Source of the DNA: Candidatus Poribacteria bacterium
GTDB taxonomy: Bacteria > Abyssobacteria > SURF-5
Assembly: GCA_016215705.1 (NCBI GenBank)
Contig: JACRIR010000086.1
Coordinates: 1 to 43,935 of the forward strand
Direction of reading: 5' to 3'
DNA: 43,935 nucleotides
Shown here in pieces: positions 792 through 43,935 of this stretch. The position numbers and the translations under genes were made by a program. How positions within the stretch are numbered: position 1 is the first letter of the stretch; the number at the start of each line of letters is the position of its first letter. The notes under the pieces are model-generated. The model was not told the DNA's origin. It was given only the letters and a program-made list of their open reading frames with translations, and ran no database searches.

Positions 792-2345
792 TCAGTTTAT
801 CGGGAAAAGGACGGCATATTGCCACGCCATGATCATCGCATGGAACAGGGCGGTTAGAAAGTAGTTTCCGCTCAGGCGGTACACGTATATGGAGAACAAC
901 TGAAATACGATGTTGTAAAGGGTCATAGGGATGACAATCAGCATGATGAAATCGCCCGTTAGTCCGAGCCGCACCCCGAGAACGAGCATGGCCAGAGGGA
1001 TGAGAATGCCGATCAACGATGCGACCGCCGCCACAAGCGTGCCTCCGCGTTTGAACGAAGCCTCGAACGCTATGAAGAACGGCAGGAGGAGCGGAAAGAT
1101 CACAAATGCCCAGAGGAGTCTCTGTGCGGTGAAGAACTGGCGAAACCATGTTTCGGTGGCAATTGCGCCGAGGGTGATGTAGACGAGAATGAAGAGCGCA
1201 AAGGCTGCGAAGACGGCCCGAGCAGGTTTTACGGTGAATTGAGCGAAGTCGATGTTTCCTCTGCGTGAGGCCACGAAGAAGAAAATTACGCCGACAACGA
1301 AGAAATACGAAATGAGGTAATCTCCGACCGGCATTGGAATGAAAGACAGCGGCGGCGCGAGTGTAATCACGAAGAGAGTGACGAAGCAGACAAGCGTAAA
1401 TGCAACCAGATTGAGCACGACCTGGCGGCCGGTCCGTTTTGCGATGGTCGGGAAGTACCACGCGAGGCCGTAGCAGCAAAAGAAGAAGATCAGGAACGAG
1501 AAGACATACATCCATCCCATCCAGGGCAGTCTCGGGTCGGACACTTGTCCGCTCATGGGCGGCAAGCCCCACACCTGGTGCAGCCAATCGAGCATCTGTC
1601 TTTGAGCGTCCATCGAGAACAGGATTGTGAGATGGTCCGTGCCTTTGACCATGCTGAGGCGGCGGGCCGAGCCGTCGCCGAAGGAACCGTAGGTAGCGCC
1701 GGCAGCCGGGCGCTCCTGCTTTATGGAATCTCTTAACATCTGTTCGGCGGCATGATGGAGGTCGGGCGGATCATTCTTGGCATATATGATGAAGAGATTT
1801 CTCGGCAGCGTGTCGGTCACCTTGGCGCTGATGCCGGAAATCGGCACAGTGGCGTCGATGTCGGGGTCGGTGAACGCATAGGTCACTACGGCGCCGCCGC
1901 CCATCGAGTGACCCATGATGGCGATCCGGTCGGTGTCAACTTCTTTTGATGTCTGGCCAAAGGACACCGGCATTCTCTCGTTCAGGTTCTTGGCGAAATC
2001 GACCACCAGCTTCATGTCTTCTTGAAGCCGGTTGTGGTCGAAGCCGACGTTGTTCTGGCCGTGCCCCCGGAAATCGAAGGTGACCACGGCGAAGCCGTCC
2101 CGCAACAGACTGTATGCGAGCGACTGCATCATCTCTTTGTCCGCCGTGAACCCGTGAGCGACGATGACGATGGGAGGTCTCGGGGCCTCGGGGAGATAAA
2201 CCTGCGCAGGTATCCGGCCGGAAATCAGGACATCACGCCTGTCGAATGAGTCCCGATATGCGTCCGCGCGCCTATAGAATGAAAAAAGGAGAACCAGGAG
2301 GACGATCGCGACGACAAGAGCAGCGAGCCTCTTTATTGAACGCAT
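792..2345 (-). CDS. Alpha/beta hydrolase with N-terminal anchor and C-terminal multi-pass membrane domain
   Basis: The 517-aa protein has an N-terminal membrane anchor (residues 7-23) and a serine hydrolase domain at about 38-260. It shows an oxyanion strand AHGF (63-66), a DFRGHG turn (91-96), the nucleophile elbow GHSMGG with Ser147, an acid strand IIYAKND near 192 and a histidine in GTDHLT (238). About seven hydrophobic segments follow from 278 to the end. The hydrolase domain is of the dienelactone hydrolase / acyl-peptidase type and probably faces the periplasm; substrate unknown. A canonical AGGAGGG lies 9 nt before the ATG. It is monocistronic as far as seen, with convergent or repeat-filled flanks. 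Soluble hydrolase fused to a polytopic membrane domain is an uncommon architecture. Confidence 0.85.
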   Translation of the reverse strand: MRSIKRLAALVVAIVLLVLLFSFYRRADAYRDSFDRRDVLISGRIPAQVYLPEAPRPPIVIVAHGFTADKEMMQSLAYSLLRDGFAVVTFDFRGHGQNNVGFDHNRLQEDMKLVVDFAKNLNERMPVSFGQTSKEVDTDRIAIMGHSMGGGAVVTYAFTDPDIDATVPISGISAKVTDTLPRNLFIIYAKNDPPDLHHAAEQMLRDSIKQERPAAGATYGSFGDGSARRLSMVKGTDHLTILFSMDAQRQMLDWLHQVWGLPPMSGQVSDPRLPWMGWMYVFSFLIFFFCCYGLAWYFPTIAKRTGRQVVLNLVAFTLVCFVTLFVITLAPPLSFIPMPVGDYLISYFFVVGVIFFFVASRRGNIDFAQFTVKPARAVFAAFALFILVYITLGAIATETWFRQFFTAQRLLWAFVIFPLLLPFFIAFEASFKRGGTLVAAVASLIGILIPLAMLVLGVRLGLTGDFIMLIVIPMTLYNIVFQLFSIYVYRLSGNYFLTALFHAMIMAWQYAVLFPIN

Positions 2346-2423
2346 CTTTTGAGCCCTCCTAACGAAAGTAGGTTCATGGTTTGTGGGTTATGGTTGAATC
2401 TCAAAGAGCCTCGCCATTGTTGC

Positions 2424-2468
2424 CCTTAATTTGGGGACACGATGGGGCATCATGTCCCCAAATTAAGG
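2424..2468. repeat. Long palindrome, GGGGACACGATG family
   Basis: The arms CCTTAATTTGGGGACA and TGTCCCCAAATTAAGG flank a short centre, giving a near-perfect stem of about 20 bp. The core GGGGACACGATG recurs at 2857, 13063, 25003 and 25055. The stem flanks (here CTTAATTT, elsewhere AAAATC) differ between copies and are mirrored on both sides, so each copy keeps its own pairing. Confidence 0.8.
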
Positions 2469-2812
2469 AGCGTTTCTTCCACAGTCAGCCGCGCCACAGG
2501 CGTGGTCAGACGCTCCTAAGAAGAATGGTTCACGGTTTACAGTTTACGGTTGAAAAGATTGTGGAAGCGCGCCATCTCGCGGCGTGAACCAATGGACCGA
2601 ATAATGGACACTATACCCGCAAGATTTGTGAGTGTCAACTATAGGTGAGGCGAAAGGCGAAACGGGAACCGATTGCGGGGATTGCGGAATGAACAAAGAA
2701 GAAGCAAGGAAGACTGCGAAAAGAATGATTGGAGATGAATTATGAGCTTCTTCGCTTCGCTCAGAATGACGTTAAAGAAGGTCGGAACGAACACCCTACA
2801 TGGAAATCACGA

Positions 2813-2889
2813 GGGCGCAATGAATTGCGCCCCTACAGACAAGAATGAAGAGAATCTGGGACACGATGTCGCATCGTGTCCCAGATTCT
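2813..2889. repeat. Composite repeat: two palindrome families joined by a fixed spacer
   Basis: The palindrome GGGCGCAATGAATTGCGCCC (2813-2832) is followed by CTACAGACAAGAATGAAGA and then by the hairpin with arms AGAATCTGGGACACGATG and CATCGTGTCCCAGATTCT. The same arrangement, spacer included, occurs in reverse orientation at 13057-13131. The shared spacer shows that the two palindromes moved or were copied as one unit. Confidence 0.8.
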
Positions 2890-3102
2890 CTGAGGCGCGA
2901 TTTATCGCGTCCGATATGTGGCGGAGCCAAGGAGAGAGCCGAGGTGAGAGATCCGAGGTGTCAAGGCCGAGGTTGACCACGTGGGCGCACCATGATAGAA
3001 TATGCGCGTTTTGAGGAAAAGAGTCGCGTCTTGGGCGACCAAAAAAGAAACTGACGACAACCTCCGAATCTTACTAATGAGCAACGCTTGCAGGGGGAAT
3101 TC

Positions 3103-3531
3103 ATGAGAATAGCGCGCGGGAAGGTTTTCTTGATTCTGGCTATGTTGGCGGTTGGATTTGTCACGAGTTGTGCGCTGTTCGACAAAGAGGACGAGGAATT
3201 ATTGCCTACCAGAAAGGTAAGGGTGCTTGCTTTTCCCGTGCGCCCGCTGGAGTTTGAGAACATCTATTGCATGCAGGAAATGGAAAAAATAGAACTGTCG
3301 GGTTCCTTGAAGAATATTTCGTATGCGCCGATTTCAGGTGTGCAAGTGCATGCGAAGCTATATTTTGCCGGCGAGCTTCCCAGCGAAAGATTTGTCCTGC
3401 CGCTCAGCCCGCCGATGCTTCAGCCGGGGCAGACCGGAACGTTCAGTCTGACGGGGAAAGAGGTGAGCCATACAGTCAGCCACGTCGAGTTGCACGCGCA
3501 ATGGCAGGATTTCGTTCCGGCGGGGCAATGA
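3103..3531 (+). CDS. Small exported lipoprotein with FxLYD-like beta domain
   Basis: The 142-aa product starts with a classic lipoprotein signal: a basic MRIARGK, a hydrophobic stretch and a lipobox ending VTSC (Cys about residue 23). The mature part is a small beta-rich domain with ELSGSLKNISYAPISGVQVH and LQPGQTGTFSLTG, the pattern of FxLYD/DUF3426-type domains found on bacterial envelope proteins. The ATG at 3103 is chosen over an upstream in-frame TTG (3088) because AGGGGG (3092-3097) sits 5 nt before it and because it places the signal peptide at the N-terminus. Predicted to sit lipid-anchored in the periplasm; partner unknown. Confidence 0.8.
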   Translation: MRIARGKVFLILAMLAVGFVTSCALFDKEDEELLPTRKVRVLAFPVRPLEFENIYCMQEMEKIELSGSLKNISYAPISGVQVHAKLYFAGELPSERFVLPLSPPMLQPGQTGTFSLTGKEVSHTVSHVELHAQWQDFVPAGQ

Positions 3532-4368
3532 ACGCAAAAGTGAAAGGTGAAAGGGCAAAGGTGAAAGTGGACAAGCAACTGGCTTACGGCTAACGGTCTG
3601 CAGTTCGCGGTTGAGAGATGAAGCGATTTGCGCTTCTTTTTGCCCATTCCTCATTTTTCCCCAGTTTTCTCTTTTCTCCAATCCATTGATTCCTTTCGTT
3701 CTTTCCCGACCGGAAACCAGAAACGCTGCGCGCTTTACGCGGAGGTGCTGACTCTTTATGCAACTGCTGATAAAAGCGGCAAGCTTCATGGTCTCCTTTC
3801 AAGAAAGAGGGTCCCGTCCATCTCTCTCCTTGCGTCATAATTCGTTGTCGTTTCATTAGTTCTGCTTCGTCACAGCAATCTCGTGGCAAGCTTGGCATCG
3901 TACTTGCCAAATACCCTTAAGAAACCCGGTTCATTGTTTGTGGTTTGGGGCAAGAAGCTCCAAAGTGAGACTTTCGCCAAAAGCAGCAGGTAGGGAATGA
4001 GATTGGGCGGACTGGTTCTTCCGATTGTTTTGAGACTCTGTGCCAGCCAGCCAAAGTCGCGGGGTCAGAAGGCCGGCCCGCCCGATTGTAAAGAATAGGC
4101 GAAAGGCGAAAGGGGCCGCGCGAAGCGCGCGGTGTTCGGAGTTTATGGTTTATGGTTGTGAACCATGAACCAGAAACCGATTTTGAAATTGGGAACGCTG
4201 GGAGCCGGAGCATCCCATTAAAGAGACACGGAACCACAGCGCGGCATAGCTACGACCAACCAAAGAAGAAGAGGGATCCGCAGATTTCGCTGATCCCACG
4301 AATAAAGAAGGCCACTGATTTAGACTGATCTGCGCAGATTTCAGGGAAAACAAGAAGGGGATTGATCG
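3532..4368. other. Low-complexity intergenic region
   Basis: No gene is supported here. The stretch holds purine-rich words (GAAAGGTGAAAGGGC near 3541), a pyrimidine-rich tract (about 3628-3715), degenerate GGTTTATGG-type words (3925-3960, 4140-4180) and a repeat at 4092-4143 that recurs downstream of the ammonium transporter. These look like decayed repeats, not a decayed gene. Confidence 0.55.
4092..4143. repeat. Upstream copy of the repeat flanking the ammonium transporter
   Basis: GGCGAAAGGCGAAAGGGG is followed by the small palindrome CCGCGCGAAGCGCGCGG and GTTCGGAGTTTATGG. A diverged copy with the same order (GGCGAAAGGCGAAAGGG, then CCGCGCGAAACGCGCGG and GTTCAAAGTC) lies at 5750-5842, so the transporter gene is bracketed by directly repeated sequence. 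Confidence 0.7.
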
Positions 4369-5745
4369 ATGAAGAAAGCGGCAAGCATTTTCGGTGGTGT
4401 TCTCGCAATCCTTCTGCTCGTCAGCATGCCGGTGTTCGCGGATGAGCCGGCGGGGGAAATTGTCTCCGGGCAGGCGTCGGTCGTCGCGACTCAGGTCGCT
4501 ACGGCCGCTGCGGCTGCGCCGACGGTGGACACCGGCGACACTTCATGGATTCTGATTTCTTCGGCGCTGGTAATGCTGATGACACCCGGGCTTGCCCTTT
4601 TCTACGGCGGCATGGTCAGAACCAAGAACGTTCTCGGGACAATCATGCAGAGTTTTGTCGCTCTCGGCGTGATCACTATCCAGTGGGTTCTCTACGGCTA
4701 CAGCCTGGCATTTGGGCCAGATGTCCACCACGTTGTGGGAAACCTCGACTGGATCGGGCTCAGGGGAGTCGGGCTTGAGCCGTACGCTGCTTATGCGGCC
4801 ACGATCCCGCACCAGGCATTCATGGTTTTTCAGATGATGTTTGCCGTCATTACTCCGGCGCTGATCACGGGCGCTATTGCCGAACGATTCAAGTTCAAGA
4901 CGTATCTTGTGTTTCTGATTCTATGGGCGACATTGGTTTATGATCCCATGGCCCATTGGGTCTGGGGGATTGGCGGCTGGATCAGGAATCTCGGCGCTCT
5001 TGATTTTGCAGGCGGTCTTGTCGTACATATAAGTTCAGGGGTTGCCGCGCTCGCGGCGACACTGGCTGTGGGAAAGAGGAAAGGTTACGGCGAAGAACCC
5101 ATGCCGCCGCACAATTTGACCATGACACTGCTTGGCGCAGCCTTATTATGGTTTGGCTGGTTTGGTTTCAACGGCGGGAGCGCAGTGGCGTCGGGCTCGC
5201 TGGCCACGTCTGCTTTTGTAGTGACCCATATCTCGACAGCGGCCGCGGCGCTCTCCTGGATGATCGTTGAATGGTCGCATCGAGGCAACCCGACTGTTCT
5301 TGGAGCGGCCTCGGGCGCAGTCGCGGGACTTGTCGCTATCACGCCGGCGTCGGGTTTTGTGGGGCCGGTTTCGGCTATCATTATTGGAGGCGCGGCAGGC
5401 GTGGCGTGTTATTTCGCCATTAATTTGAAGAGCAAGTTCGGATACGACGATTCTCTTGACGTTGTCGGAGTCCATGGCGTAGGCGGCACGCTTGGCGCGC
5501 TGGCGACCGGATTATTTGCGTCAAAGGCCATAAATGCGGCGGGCGTCGACGGGCTATTCTTCGGTAATCCTTCTTTGCTGATAACGCAGGCGATGAGCGT
5601 GGGGGCGGCGTGGCTCTATTCCTTTGTTATGACGTTCATCATTCTCAAGGTGCTCGACTGGACTATGGGTCTGAGGGTGAGCGAAGAGCACGAGGTGGAC
5701 GGTCTCGATCAGAGCCAGCATGGCGAGACGGGATACAACTATTAA
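4369..5745 (+). CDS. amt: Ammonium transporter (Amt/MEP/Rh family)
   Basis: The 458-aa inner-membrane channel carries ammonium/ammonia into the cell. Residues 1-25 are a cleavable signal (ending VFADEP), usual for Amt proteins. The family hallmarks are present: FYGGMVRTKNVLGTIMQS (78-95), DPMAHWVWG (192-200), LDFAGGLVVH with Asp212 and pore His220, WFGWFGFNGGS (261-271) and GVHGVGG with the second pore His369. About eleven membrane segments can be traced. The start has GAAGGGG about 8 nt upstream. A GlnK/GlnB gene usually follows amt, but none does here, so PII control, if any, comes from elsewhere. The gene is flanked by copies of one repeat. Confidence 0.95.
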   Translation: MKKAASIFGGVLAILLLVSMPVFADEPAGEIVSGQASVVATQVATAAAAAPTVDTGDTSWILISSALVMLMTPGLALFYGGMVRTKNVLGTIMQSFVALGVITIQWVLYGYSLAFGPDVHHVVGNLDWIGLRGVGLEPYAAYAATIPHQAFMVFQMMFAVITPALITGAIAERFKFKTYLVFLILWATLVYDPMAHWVWGIGGWIRNLGALDFAGGLVVHISSGVAALAATLAVGKRKGYGEEPMPPHNLTMTLLGAALLWFGWFGFNGGSAVASGSLATSAFVVTHISTAAAALSWMIVEWSHRGNPTVLGAASGAVAGLVAITPASGFVGPVSAIIIGGAAGVACYFAINLKSKFGYDDSLDVVGVHGVGGTLGALATGLFASKAINAAGVDGLFFGNPSLLITQAMSVGAAWLYSFVMTFIILKVLDWTMGLRVSEEHEVDGLDQSQHGETGYNY

Positions 5746-5749
5746 AGAG

Positions 5750-5842
5750 GCGAAAGGCGAAAGGGTAAAGGCGAAGGGAACAAGCAAGAATAAAGACGTA
5801 AAGGGCGAAAGAGGGCCGCGCGAAACGCGCGGAGTTCAAAGT
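5750..5842. repeat. Downstream copy of the repeat flanking the ammonium transporter
   Basis: Begins 5 nt after the amt stop codon with GGCGAAAGGCGAAAGGG and ends with the palindrome CCGCGCGAAACGCGCGG plus GTTCAAAGTC. It matches the order of elements at 4092-4143, with extra purine-rich sequence inside. Confidence 0.65.
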
Positions 5843-5928
5843 CCATTGATTAGTTGCTCTGCGCAGGCGGTTCATTAGTGCAACCCTTAATAGAAGCGTG
5901 TGCCCGGCCGAAAAAGCGAGGTGCTCGG

Positions 5929-6231
5929 ATGCCGAGACAATTCAAGGTTCTATCAGGCGGCAGTGGGGAACATGCCAGTAATGTTGTCTCACCTGAAGAG
6001 GAACTTACACACTTCCGAAACGTGAATGGTTCCTTGGTGCAGGGTGCGCTCGACACGTGGGGCGACATCTGGGATGAGATGCAGAACTCTGTGGTATATG
6101 GAGTTCTGGTGACGCCCGAAATTGACAAGGGCTTCAAACCGAAATGTGGCTGGCCCGAATTCCTCGAGAGGATGTGGCTGCTCAGGCGTTATCTTGAGCA
6201 CGCCAAGACATTATGTGAGGGACAAGGCTAG
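5929..6231 (+). CDS. Conserved-looking small protein of unknown function
   Basis: A 100-aa product, soluble and without a signal peptide. The C-terminal half is rich in aromatic residues (DTWGDIWDEM, GWPEFLERMWLLRRYLEHAK) and probably helical. I do not recognise a named family. The ATG at 5929 is preferred to the upstream TTG at 5854 because GCGAGGTG precedes it at a fair distance and because the extra N-terminus looks like translated noncoding DNA. The stop codon TAG (6229-6231) lies inside the left end of the MITE-like element 6227-6338, so the native C-terminus may have been lost or replaced at insertion. Confidence 0.55.
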   Translation: MPRQFKVLSGGSGEHASNVVSPEEELTHFRNVNGSLVQGALDTWGDIWDEMQNSVVYGVLVTPEIDKGFKPKCGWPEFLERMWLLRRYLEHAKTLCEGQG

Positions 6232-40977: not shown

Positions 40978-41145
40978 TTTTCTCGTCCCCTCTCACAGCA
41001 AGATATTTGGGAGTGGTTTCGCTCCATGAGCTTTATTAACTATGCTTTTGCATGAACAATTGAGCAATGCTTCAATAACTCGGTCCTTCACGGTCAGTTG
41101 CCCAAATAAGATATGTACGGCGTGTTGCCCAAATGGTAATAGCTG

Positions 41146-41202
41146 TTTGTCATTCGGAGCGAGCCGTTTGTCATTCGGAGCCATCCATTTGTCATTCTGA
41201 GC
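41146..41202. repeat. Three 21-bp tandem units
   Basis: TTTGTCATTCGGAGC occurs at 41146 and 41167 and TTTGTCATTCTGAGC at 41188, each followed by 6 variable bases, giving a 21-bp period. The third unit runs into the hairpin element at 41191-41297, so the tandem units look like partial copies of its left end. Confidence 0.7.
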
Positions 41203-41297
41203 GAAGGGCCGCAGGCCCGAGCGAAGAATCTCTGTCTATAGGTCGCAAATTTGCAGGAAAACGAGAGATTCTTCGTCGCTTCGCTCTTCAGAATGAC
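41191..41297. mobile_element. 107-bp hairpin element with long inverted ends (MITE-like)
   Basis: The left end GTCATTCTGAGCGAAG ... GCGAAGAATCTCT (41191-41233) pairs with the right end AGAGATTCTTCG ... CTTCAGAATGAC (41264-41297), leaving a short noncoding centre. Single half copies occur at 2747-2770 and within the end of the gene at 29258. No transposase is linked. Confidence 0.7.
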
Positions 41298-41735
41298 AAT
41301 CCTGACAGCACTATGAAGCGCAATTTCATTCGGGCAACACGCCGTGTACTACTAACCCATGTTCCGCAGCTTTGTCTTGCCGCAAGCTCATTTTTCGACG
41401 AGGACCCGAAGAAGGCCCAATTCTTGCCGTATTTCGGTTCCTTGCGCCCTTGCGCGGCTCCTTTTCGCCTTTTGCCTGTTCATGCCAGTGCGCTGGCCAC
41501 AGTGGATGTGATTGTGAACGGCGTGTTCGTAAGGGGCTGCTTTCCGACCCGGGACTTCCCAACCCACTGGCAATAATGGTTAACTTTTGACACCAATCTC
41601 GCCTTGTATTAGAATAGTCACGCTTGCGGCTCGGCGCTCTTCTTCTTTCCCAATCGGCTGCTGGTTAGTTTCGGCGCGAGCCCATGAGCTTTCTCCACGG
41701 TGTGTTCCTAACTCGTTGCCAAGGGAGGGGGTTAA

Positions 41736-42252: not shown

Positions 42253-42295
42253 GAATTAGGTAATACCTAATGAATTAGGTAATGAATTAGGTAAT
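42253..42295 (+). promoter_or_regulatory. Operator-like palindrome plus 12-bp direct repeats at the methyltransferase start
   Basis: GAATTAGGTAAT occurs three times (42253, 42272, 42284). The first copy plus ACCTAAT forms the perfect 17-bp palindrome ATTAGGTAATACCTAAT (42255-42271). The third copy overlaps the ATG at 42294. Binding here would block ribosome or polymerase entry, as with autoregulated modification genes. Confidence 0.6.
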
Positions 42296-43916
42296 GTCCA
42301 TGATCCCTAAAGAATGCAAGCGCTTAATTGAGGTAGACTTCCCGATTGCGTTGGTGAGCAAGCATTCGGCGAGGGAGAAGTCTATTCGGCATGGGCATCC
42401 GTCAACATTGCATTTGTGGTGGGCGAGGCGGCCATTAGCAGCCTGCAGGGCGGTGCTTCTGGGATTGCTCCTGCCGGACCCTTGCGATGAGTATTGTCCA
42501 AAAGACTTCAAGAAGGAAGCCCGGCGAGCGCTTGCGCCAACTCCTTGCGCACTTGAACCGGATGATGAAGGGCTTCGAAAAGCTCTCCTAAAATTCATCG
42601 GCGATTTCTCGAATTGGGATTTGTCGTCGAATCCCGTTTACCTCAAGGCCGCTCGCACGCTTGTGAAAGCCGCGCACGGTGATGAGCCTCCTCTCGTGGT
42701 TGACCCATTTGCGGGTGGCGGCTCAATCCCTCTCGAAGCGCTTCGTCTGGGTTGTGATGCATTCGCAAGCGACCTTAATCCTGTTGCTTGCCTGATTCTC
42801 AAGGTGATGCTCGAAGACATACCCAGATGGGGAAGTAAAAAGATAAAAGTAAAAAGGCAAAATTGCGAAGAGGTTGAGGCAGAGGGGCTGGCAGAGGCGC
42901 TTCGGATTGTCGGTAAGGAGATAAAAGAAAAGGCCGAAAAAGAGCTTGCTGAGTTTTACCCGCCCGATCCGGATGGTTCGAAGCCAATTGCATATCTTTG
43001 GGCACGGACAGTCCGATGCGAATCTCCCAACTGCGGGGCCGAGATTCCGCTCATGCGGTCCTTCTGGCTGTGCAAGAAAGCGAACAGGAAAAGAGCGCTG
43101 AGATACAAGATTCTCCCCAAACCCTCTCCCTCTGAACCCTCTCCCATTGGGAGAGGGAAGGGTGAGGGATACCATGGCGCCTCGTCCTTGCCAAAGGACC
43201 TGCTTCAATTCGCTCGCTCTCTCCGAAAGGAGCAAACCGACGCAGAGGCGCGACTCTGGTTCTTACTAAGGGATAGGCGTTTGGCGGGAAAGAAATTCCG
43301 CCGACAGCATGCCATTCCACCTTATGTTGTCGATTTCTACTGCCATGATGCGCAACTGGTCATCGAAGTGGACGGAGGGCAACACGCGGAAGCGAGACGG
43401 CGAGATGATGCGCGTACGGCCTTCCTGGAAAGTAAGGGGCTGCGAGTTATTCGCTTCTGGAACAATGAGGTTTTGCAGTCCACGGAAACAGTGTTGGAAG
43501 TGGTATGGAGGGAACTGCTCTCACCCTCACCCCCAACCCCTCTCCCACAGGGAGAGGGGAACATGCCACCGATGGCGTTCGAGGGAGCGGGGAAGCTGCC
43601 ATCGATGGCGTTCGAGGGAGCGGAAAATCTGCCGCGGGTAGAGTTCGAGATATTTGAACCCAAAATAGAGAAGGAAGCGCCTACCGGCACAGTTACCAGA
43701 GCCAAGGCGACATGCCTTTGCTGCGGAACGGTTCTTCCGCCGGAACGAGTCCGGGCACAGCTTGCCGATCAGCGCGGCGGCGCAGATGTGATATTTGATT
43801 CCGCTGCAAAACCTCCTGCTTTCCCCCAAAGCACAATGCTGGCCGGACAGCAGCCAGAAAACGAGCCTCTGAGAGGCGCTACAGCGCGAGATCTCAAGGC
43901 GGGCAAGGTGATTTGA
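42294..43916 (+). CDS. DUF1156 DNA methyltransferase, truncated, with DUF559 nuclease cassette inserted in frame
   Basis: A 540-aa ORF. Residues 1-270 are the N-terminus of a DUF1156 adenine/cytosine DNA methyltransferase: [19 protein letters not shown] (35-53), SAM motif [20 protein letters not shown] (135-153), SDLNPVA (159-165) and a zinc-finger-like CESPNCG (242-248). Residues 281-422 come from an inserted element with a DUF559 endonuclease-like domain (about 303-407: [20 protein letters not shown] with Asp347, Glu358, Asp360). Then the methyltransferase resumes ([26 protein letters not shown]) and diverges after GGADVIFD, stopping far short of the usual 900 or more residues and before the DPPY motif. 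Activity is therefore doubtful. The tail could be a frameshift or rearrangement. ATG overlaps a direct repeat operator; no clear Shine-Dalgarno. Confidence 0.8.
43137..43559 (+). mobile_element. 423-bp mobile cassette carrying a DUF559 domain, inserted in frame
   Basis: The left hairpin CCCTCTCCC-ATT-GGGAGAGGG (43137-43157) and right hairpin CCCCTCTCCC-ACA-GGGAGAGGGG (43537-43559), with adjacent AAGGGTGAGGG and CCCTCACCCCCAA, form long inverted ends. The length is 141 codons exactly, so the host frame is kept. The ends translate as [11 protein letters not shown] and [13 protein letters not shown], peptide scars common near such elements. Inside is a full DUF559 (Vsr-like PD-(D/E)XK) domain. 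Confidence 0.75.
43560..43648 (+). repeat. 33-bp in-frame tandem repeat after the DUF559 cassette
   Basis: Units of 33 bp starting at 43560 and 43593, with a third diverged partial unit from 43626, encode [22 protein letters not shown] and NLPRVEFE. The third unit belongs to the methyltransferase itself (VEFEIFEPK), so the first two may be duplications made at insertion. Confidence 0.7.
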
Positions 43917-43935
43917 TGCCTCGCCAAAACTCGTC
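43916..43935 (+). CDS. Start of a possible next gene, cut by the window end
   Basis: An ATG shares one base with the methyltransferase stop (TGATG), and six codons (MPRQNS) are visible. This is the usual spacing of coupled genes in a defence operon, but the fragment is too short to identify. It might instead be the remainder of the methyltransferase. Confidence 0.3.

Follow-up and report, generated by a model that had tools for sequence, protein, structure and literature searches.

Short palindromic elements that lie in frame inside unrelated protein genes and are read as protein are known as Rickettsia palindromic elements, or RPEs (PMC10969869). A different association of palindromes with a gene is represented by the REP/REPIN sequences and RAYT/TnpA-REP, in which a low-copy and mostly vertically kept gene with palindromes is accompanied by many dispersed non-autonomous palindromes (PMC3116915, PMC8266576). 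A repeat with the consensus CCCTCTCCCXX(X)GGGAGAGGG has also been described (PMC2869309). Holder et al. described the hairpin combined with GGGTGAGGG as the intrastrand triplex motif and found no mobility gene for it, and triplex formation of the E. coli motif has been published in vitro only (PMC4666352). The DUF559 domain is present in VsrA of Caulobacter (CCNA_02930), a Vsr-like protein described as a repair-type nuclease (PMC12907096).

In the current analysis we have compared with these systems a hairpin-flanked DUF559 cassette that lies in frame within a gene for a DUF1156 DNA methyltransferase. It resembles the RPEs in habit only, being a palindromic element in frame at a site that is empty in homologues (loci L244, L248, L249 and L254); RPEs measure ~150 bp and their coding content is limited to a short peptide, whereas the DUF559 unit is of ~400-550 bp, codes for a conserved nuclease and is found in many phyla. 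With REP/REPIN it shares the layout of a palindrome-flanked low-copy gene and dispersed palindromes in the same genome. RAYT is, however, a HUH tyrosine transposase, whereas the cassette enzyme is a nuclease of predicted Vsr/EDxHD fold with no HUH gene between the palindromes; the cassette repeats are furthermore triplex-type hairpins with GGGAGAGGG, and the cassette is often in frame inside proteins. The intrastrand triplex motif (TM, TM-ECO, BoxC/PIT) has the same hairpin and GGGTGAGGG sequence as the cassette ends, but the published TM repeats of E. coli are intergenic and without a mobility gene, whereas here the sequence forms the ends of DUF559 cassettes, sometimes inside genes. EDxHD/Vsr-like homing endonucleases (I-Bth0305I) and inteins have in common with the cassette the nuclease fold and in-frame residence in conserved genes; inteins are spliced and have no hairpin ends, whereas the cassettes are hairpin-ended and, with the exception of locus L223, no splicing domain was found in them.

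DUF559 is mentioned in only 14 open-access papers; a search of the open-access literature revealed no link of DUF559 to these repeats or to in-frame insertion, and the hairpin-ended element is apparently undescribed. We consider it probable, at roughly 0.6, that the segment is a copy of a widespread mobile element consisting of a Vsr/homing-type nuclease (DUF559) gene between hairpin terminal inverted repeats, one lineage of which resides in frame within proteins.

The cassette and its host gene

The window, that is the whole stretch of DNA analysed, is a complete contig of 43,935 nucleotides. At positions 43137-43559 two hairpins (CCCTCTCCC-loop-GGGAGAGGG) enclose a complete DUF559 nuclease, and the segment is in frame with the methyltransferase gene in which it lies. 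The features identified are given below, with the basis of each in brackets.

42294-43916, + strand: host ORF of 540 aa, DUF1156 DNA methyltransferase (anti-phage-associated family) with the in-frame cassette (ORF, Pfam, homologues)
43113-43134: further pyrimidine tract CTCCCCAAACCCTCTCCCTCTG, adjacent to the left hairpin on its outer side (repeat search)
43137-43157: left terminal hairpin CCCTCTCCC ATT GGGAGAGGG, an in-frame part of the protein (repeat search, genome pattern count)
43160-43168, + strand: inner GGGTGAGGG, corresponding to the third strand in the published intrastrand triplex motif (motif enrichment; PMC4666352)
43197-43517, + strand: DUF559 nuclease domain of predicted Vsr/EDxHD-type fold (profile, residue conservation, model fold match)
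43332-43334, 43365-43367, 43371-43373 and 43383-43385: conserved DUF559 residues D347, E358, D360 and H364 respectively, to which R387 is added
43524-43532: inner CCCTCACCC, the mirrored counterpart of the left third-strand motif (motif enrichment)
43537-43559: right terminal hairpin CCCCTCTCCC ACA GGGAGAGGGG, an in-frame part of the protein (repeat search, genome pattern count)
43549-43647, + strand: three 33-bp tandem units made of the right-hairpin end and the adjoining host segment (repeat search, homologue alignment)
43630-43800, + strand: host sequence resumes (...GGADVIFD) and then leaves the homologues (homologue alignment)

The Pfam family DUF559 (PF04480) has been assigned to the window protein over profile positions 2-108 of 109 (E 9e-40; 135 bits against a cut-off of 20.6) and DUF1156 (PF06634) to residues 16-75 (E 2e-24); no intein splicing domain was found in this protein in the Pfam search. 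The NCBIfam family NF042963 matches two DUF1156 homologues that also carry the cassette (L020 and L217), with a score below its cut-off. The left hairpin has perfect 9-bp arms and the right one 10-bp arms. Throughout the 5.47 Mb genome the pattern CCCTCTCCC-N1-6-GGGAGAGGG has only two copies, which are the cassette ends (reversed control pattern, 0 copies), and the window cassette is the one strong DUF559 match of that genome, which has one weak partial match elsewhere. The length of 423 bp is divisible by three, and the host frame has no stops, while each of the remaining five has 1-6. The preliminary description had thus read the hairpin ends, the complete domain, the length and the open host ORF correctly, and had rightly placed the insertion after the residues ALRYK (268-272) of the methyltransferase.

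An inner GGGTGAGGG or its mirrored CCCTCACCC stands beside each hairpin, and the actual terminal inverted repeat thus extends beyond the hairpin. Stem and in-line third strand together (43137-43168 and 43524-43559) have the layout of the intrastrand triplex motif. The tract CTCCCCAAACCCTCTCCCTCTG is probably the remnant of a further repeat, and the 33-bp tandem units would represent a local duplication after insertion. From about codon 502 onwards, over the last ~110 bp of the contig (which ends at 43935), the host ORF no longer follows the DUF1156 homologues, and it stops 19 bp before the contig end. The window's own host gene is therefore truncated or altered there, and the mismatch over 43800-43935 may reflect a pseudogene, a rearrangement or a chimeric assembly. 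Elsewhere in the window an ORF at 41133-41576 with the repeat peptide CHSERAVCHSEPSICHSER resembles another dispersed palindromic repeat family.

Conservation and fold of the nuclease

The conservation that the preliminary description had proposed to examine for Asp347, Glu358 and Asp360 is complete: these residues, together with H364 and R387, are invariant in 174 of 174 DUF559 relatives, including all 35 in-frame copies. Values of pN (0.03-0.19) are far lower than those of pS (0.19-0.97, often saturated) in every pair, and the nuclease thus appears from its substitution pattern to be under strong purifying selection. Of domestication and tolerated passenger, which had both been considered possible, the passenger alone is insufficient in view of the retained active site and this selection.

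The AlphaFold model of DUF559 (pLDDT 82.5) matches 3hrl (Z 17.5), the homing endonuclease I-Bth0305I (3r3p; Z 13.1) and Vsr (1cw0; Z 11.2), and its relation to 3r3p is also detected by Foldseek (E 9e-5) and by profile (E 1e-3). The modelled fold is of the Vsr/I-Bth0305I homing-endonuclease type. L223 (G1126:C33, ORF 2694-4931, - strand) is an intein with a DUF559 nuclease (TIGR01443 above cut-off), situated in motif I (DPTC/CGSGTT) of a DNA methyltransferase, and this occurrence suggests that the family can serve homing.

Recurrence of hairpin-flanked DUF559 genes

The best 80 DUF559 relatives in the genome collection, which come from Proteobacteria, Chloroflexi, Acidobacteria, Nitrospirae, Elusimicrobia and other phyla, include 78 with enough flanking sequence, the window among them. 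A pyrimidine/purine hairpin within 160 bp has been identified on both sides in 58 of the 78 loci and on one side in 14, compared with 16 of 1099 control windows taken from these loci. Under stricter hairpin criteria the numbers are 47 and 18 (control, 17 of 2197). The motif GGGTGAGGG occurs on both sides in 44 of 71 relatives, while a single motif is seen in 9 of 3154 control windows. Chance hairpins are ruled out by the control windows and the genome pattern counts.

The two ends of a cassette are also related to each other. In a larger set the hairpin type is equal at the left and right ends of 109 of 123 cassettes (shuffle mean 55.8, maximum 69), and the hairpin centres are reverse-complementary in 12 of 71, as against 1.4 by shuffling. 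Along the nuclease tree the hairpin type changes 27 times compared with 43-50 times when shuffled. The cassette at 43137-43559 is one copy of a general unit that recurs in unrelated genes and genomes. Two genomes (G1135 and G324; L224-L236) each contain 8-9 DUF559 cassettes, which represent several hairpin types and differ in age.

Host genes of the in-frame cassettes

The genome search for hairpin-flanked DUF559 genes that had been recommended at the outset shows that such cassettes are common elsewhere and that many are inserted in frame. The hosts belong to seven restriction-modification families, namely DUF1156, HsdS, HsdM, HsdR, type III Mod, a PglX/Eco57I-like methylase and a type ISP enzyme, and to eight others, namely MetRS, TrpC, AsnB, YgiQ, LipB, MnmG, YkuD and a haem-dependent demethylase. 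They are confirmed by Pfam, which for several of them matches host domains on either side of the cassette; L154, L194 and L205 have such flanking domains in large contigs. Numerous long open frames from Alphaproteobacteria of high GC content (L173-L186 except L180) have been discarded as accidental. As the in-frame loci were chosen by open-frame length, their frequencies are not population estimates.

Restriction-modification genes account for 18 of ~31 in-frame hosts in four taxon samples, 3 of the 31 being one-sided or cut by a contig end (binomial p 7e-9 for the excess under the assumption that such genes are 2% of targets). The qualification of the restriction-modification-like fusion as accidental, given in the preliminary description, is doubtful in view of this share.

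One stop-free cassette lineage lodges in frame in inter-domain linkers with an open frame throughout, and host and nuclease would therefore be translated as one fusion polypeptide, as judged from the reading frames. The in-frame state changes 11 times on the DUF559 tree, as against 26-35 times when shuffled, and is mostly confined to one lineage, for which clade support is moderate. A structure prediction for the fused protein from three sequences was uninformative (pLDDT 41). The PglX/Eco57I-like methylase L022 (host ORF 2002-6147) carries, beside its DUF559 cassette, four more in-frame hairpin-type peptides (PSPPGRGAGGEG and similar).

The DUF1156 site in other genomes

Four other genomes have a filled DUF1156 site (L020, L021, L214 (= L247) and L217 (= L251)); filled linkers are of ~155-254 aa. 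The empty site that had been predicted is found in the close homologues L244, L248, L249 and L254, which have linkers of 21-24 aa and are 68-88% identical to the filled genes. These empty homologues rule out that the DUF559 domain is ancestral to all DUF1156 proteins. No DUF1156 homologue with the domain and without hairpins, which had been named as the contrary case, was encountered: hairpins flank all five filled copies and are intact. L245, 94% identical to the filled L247, has kept one GGGAGAGGG hairpin as a scar and its frame is broken. The cassette has probably been lost in some lineages, at times leaving a single hairpin.

A single clade of filled genes is rejected (AU p 8.8e-6), filled and empty genes being interdigitated. 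In pairwise comparisons among the filled genes the identity is 0.73-0.81 for DUF559 and 0.71-0.81 for the host, cassette and host thus diverging in step. This pairwise agreement between DUF559 and host identity does not favour recent, repeated homing into DUF1156; together with the absence of one filled clade, this co-divergence is best explained by an old insertion with repeated loss, or by exchange of whole genes. The DUF1156 linker is a hot spot for several palindromic repeat families. Repeats without DUF559 are found there in frame in L006 (TTCACCACAGAGACACGGAG-type) and in L246 and L250 (GTAGGGGCGACC/GGGCAGG-type).

Dispersed ends and triplex-motif repeats

Of 20 Xanthomonas genomes, 16 carry the cassette in a syntenic position, together with ~50-120 matches per genome to the cassette ends, and it is mostly inherited in place. 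Among the genomes without it, two have no end matches; G127 has a single-hairpin scar at the cassette site. Among 185 Gammaproteobacteria the hairpin pattern is present in 33 of 41 genomes with a strong DUF559 match versus 27 of 144 without (Fisher p 5e-13, a value that ignores kinship and genome size). Eleven of the 144 carry 5-71 repeats with no strong DUF559, and eight genomes with strong DUF559 have none of the searched-pattern repeats. Three genomes, G175, G221 and G173, have 36-71 hairpins and no intact DUF559 gene, which may be due to recent loss or to another mobiliser. In E. coli ycjD is a DUF559 gene, and a triplex motif is situated ~180 bp downstream (L100, MG1655 1351205-1351225). 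A degenerate hairpin is also seen immediately 3' of ycjD in E. coli K-12.

Mobility and alternative explanations

Each terminal repeat of the proposed mobile element would be a GC-rich hairpin with a third-strand motif, i.e. the known intrastrand triplex repeat. The DUF559 nuclease may cut or nick DNA at the hairpin ends or at an empty target, and repair would then copy the cassette in a homing-like manner; alternatively, repair might copy end units composed of two hairpins, a process like that which REP-associated transposases are believed to carry out on REPINs. The selection on the nuclease could reflect its cutting activity, a restriction-like service to the fused methyltransferase, or both. 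That the element is selfish in the sense of self-mobilising, as the preliminary description had called it, is what we infer from these comparisons.

DUF559 cassettes are present in low numbers per genome (1-9), and no clear case of target-site duplication was found at them. The only near-identical intragenomic set is that of G160, in which three cassettes (L168, L237 and L238; 98% identical) lie inside a larger MITE-like element with different 30-bp terminal repeats CCAAAGGTATCTACACAAGTTGGTAACAAC; as these ends are not those of the cassette, other machinery can move it. Intragenomic copies have not been accepted as proof of autonomous transposition, since the outer ends in G160 differ and L228 and L219 of G1135 share flanks beyond the hairpins. 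Phages and plasmids have been rejected as the main vehicles, with 3 phage records and 43 records in the plasmid collection, many of them of megaplasmid or chromosome size.

The share of restriction-modification genes among the in-frame hosts and host families (7 of 15), the selection on DUF559 and its co-divergence with DUF1156 would also agree with a nuclease that mainly serves the host, kept for restriction or phage defence through fusion to a methyltransferase or specificity subunit, with the hairpins as leftovers of its arrival. This is unlikely, in that cassettes are also found in MetRS, TrpC, AsnB, MnmG, LipB, YgiQ and YkuD, where restriction has no obvious sense, while filled and empty DUF1156 genes interdigitate and the hairpins are intact in every filled copy. 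Somewhat less probable again is that the hairpin/triplex repeats are themselves the mobile or recombinogenic agents, by way of other enzymes or replication errors, with DUF559 a passenger between two of them. Such an origin is consistent with the nesting of the G160 copies in a different element, with hairpin-rich genomes devoid of DUF559 and with the two other repeat families of the DUF1156 linker (L006, L246, L250); yet it does not lead one to expect the same nuclease family with matched hairpins across many phyla, nor a hairpin type that tracks the nuclease tree, and repeat presence accompanies DUF559 presence.

An assembly artefact or a chance open frame at the contig end is highly improbable as the origin of the locus. 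The departure of the host ORF from its homologues so close to the contig end would fit it, as would the accidental long open frames across cassettes in GC-rich genomes (e.g. L173-L179), but four further genomes have the cassette at this DUF1156 site, and host domains lie on both sides of cassettes in large contigs. For the cassette itself this reading is refuted, and the doubt is limited to the last ~110 bp of the window.

Significance

There is a real chance that the hairpin-ended DUF559 element deserves a class of its own. Only tentatively, and at somewhat less than even odds, can the further proposal be made that it constitutes a distinct class of selfish element, with a self-mobilising Vsr-type nuclease and triplex-forming hairpin ends, one lineage of which stays unspliced in proteins as a 'spliceless intein', and that it is the mobiliser hitherto lacking for the triplex/BoxC-type repeats, which are known from hundreds of genomes, and has repeatedly been converted into fused restriction enzymes. 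The DUF559 gene is a candidate mobility gene for a repeat family that has been described since at least 2010 without one. The in-frame copies suggest that a nuclease-coding element can reside inside essential enzymes such as methionyl-tRNA synthetase and MnmG without splicing, and such residence challenges the expectation that invaders of this kind need introns or inteins. A possible route to fusions of nuclease and methyltransferase is suggested by the excess of cassettes in restriction-modification genes.
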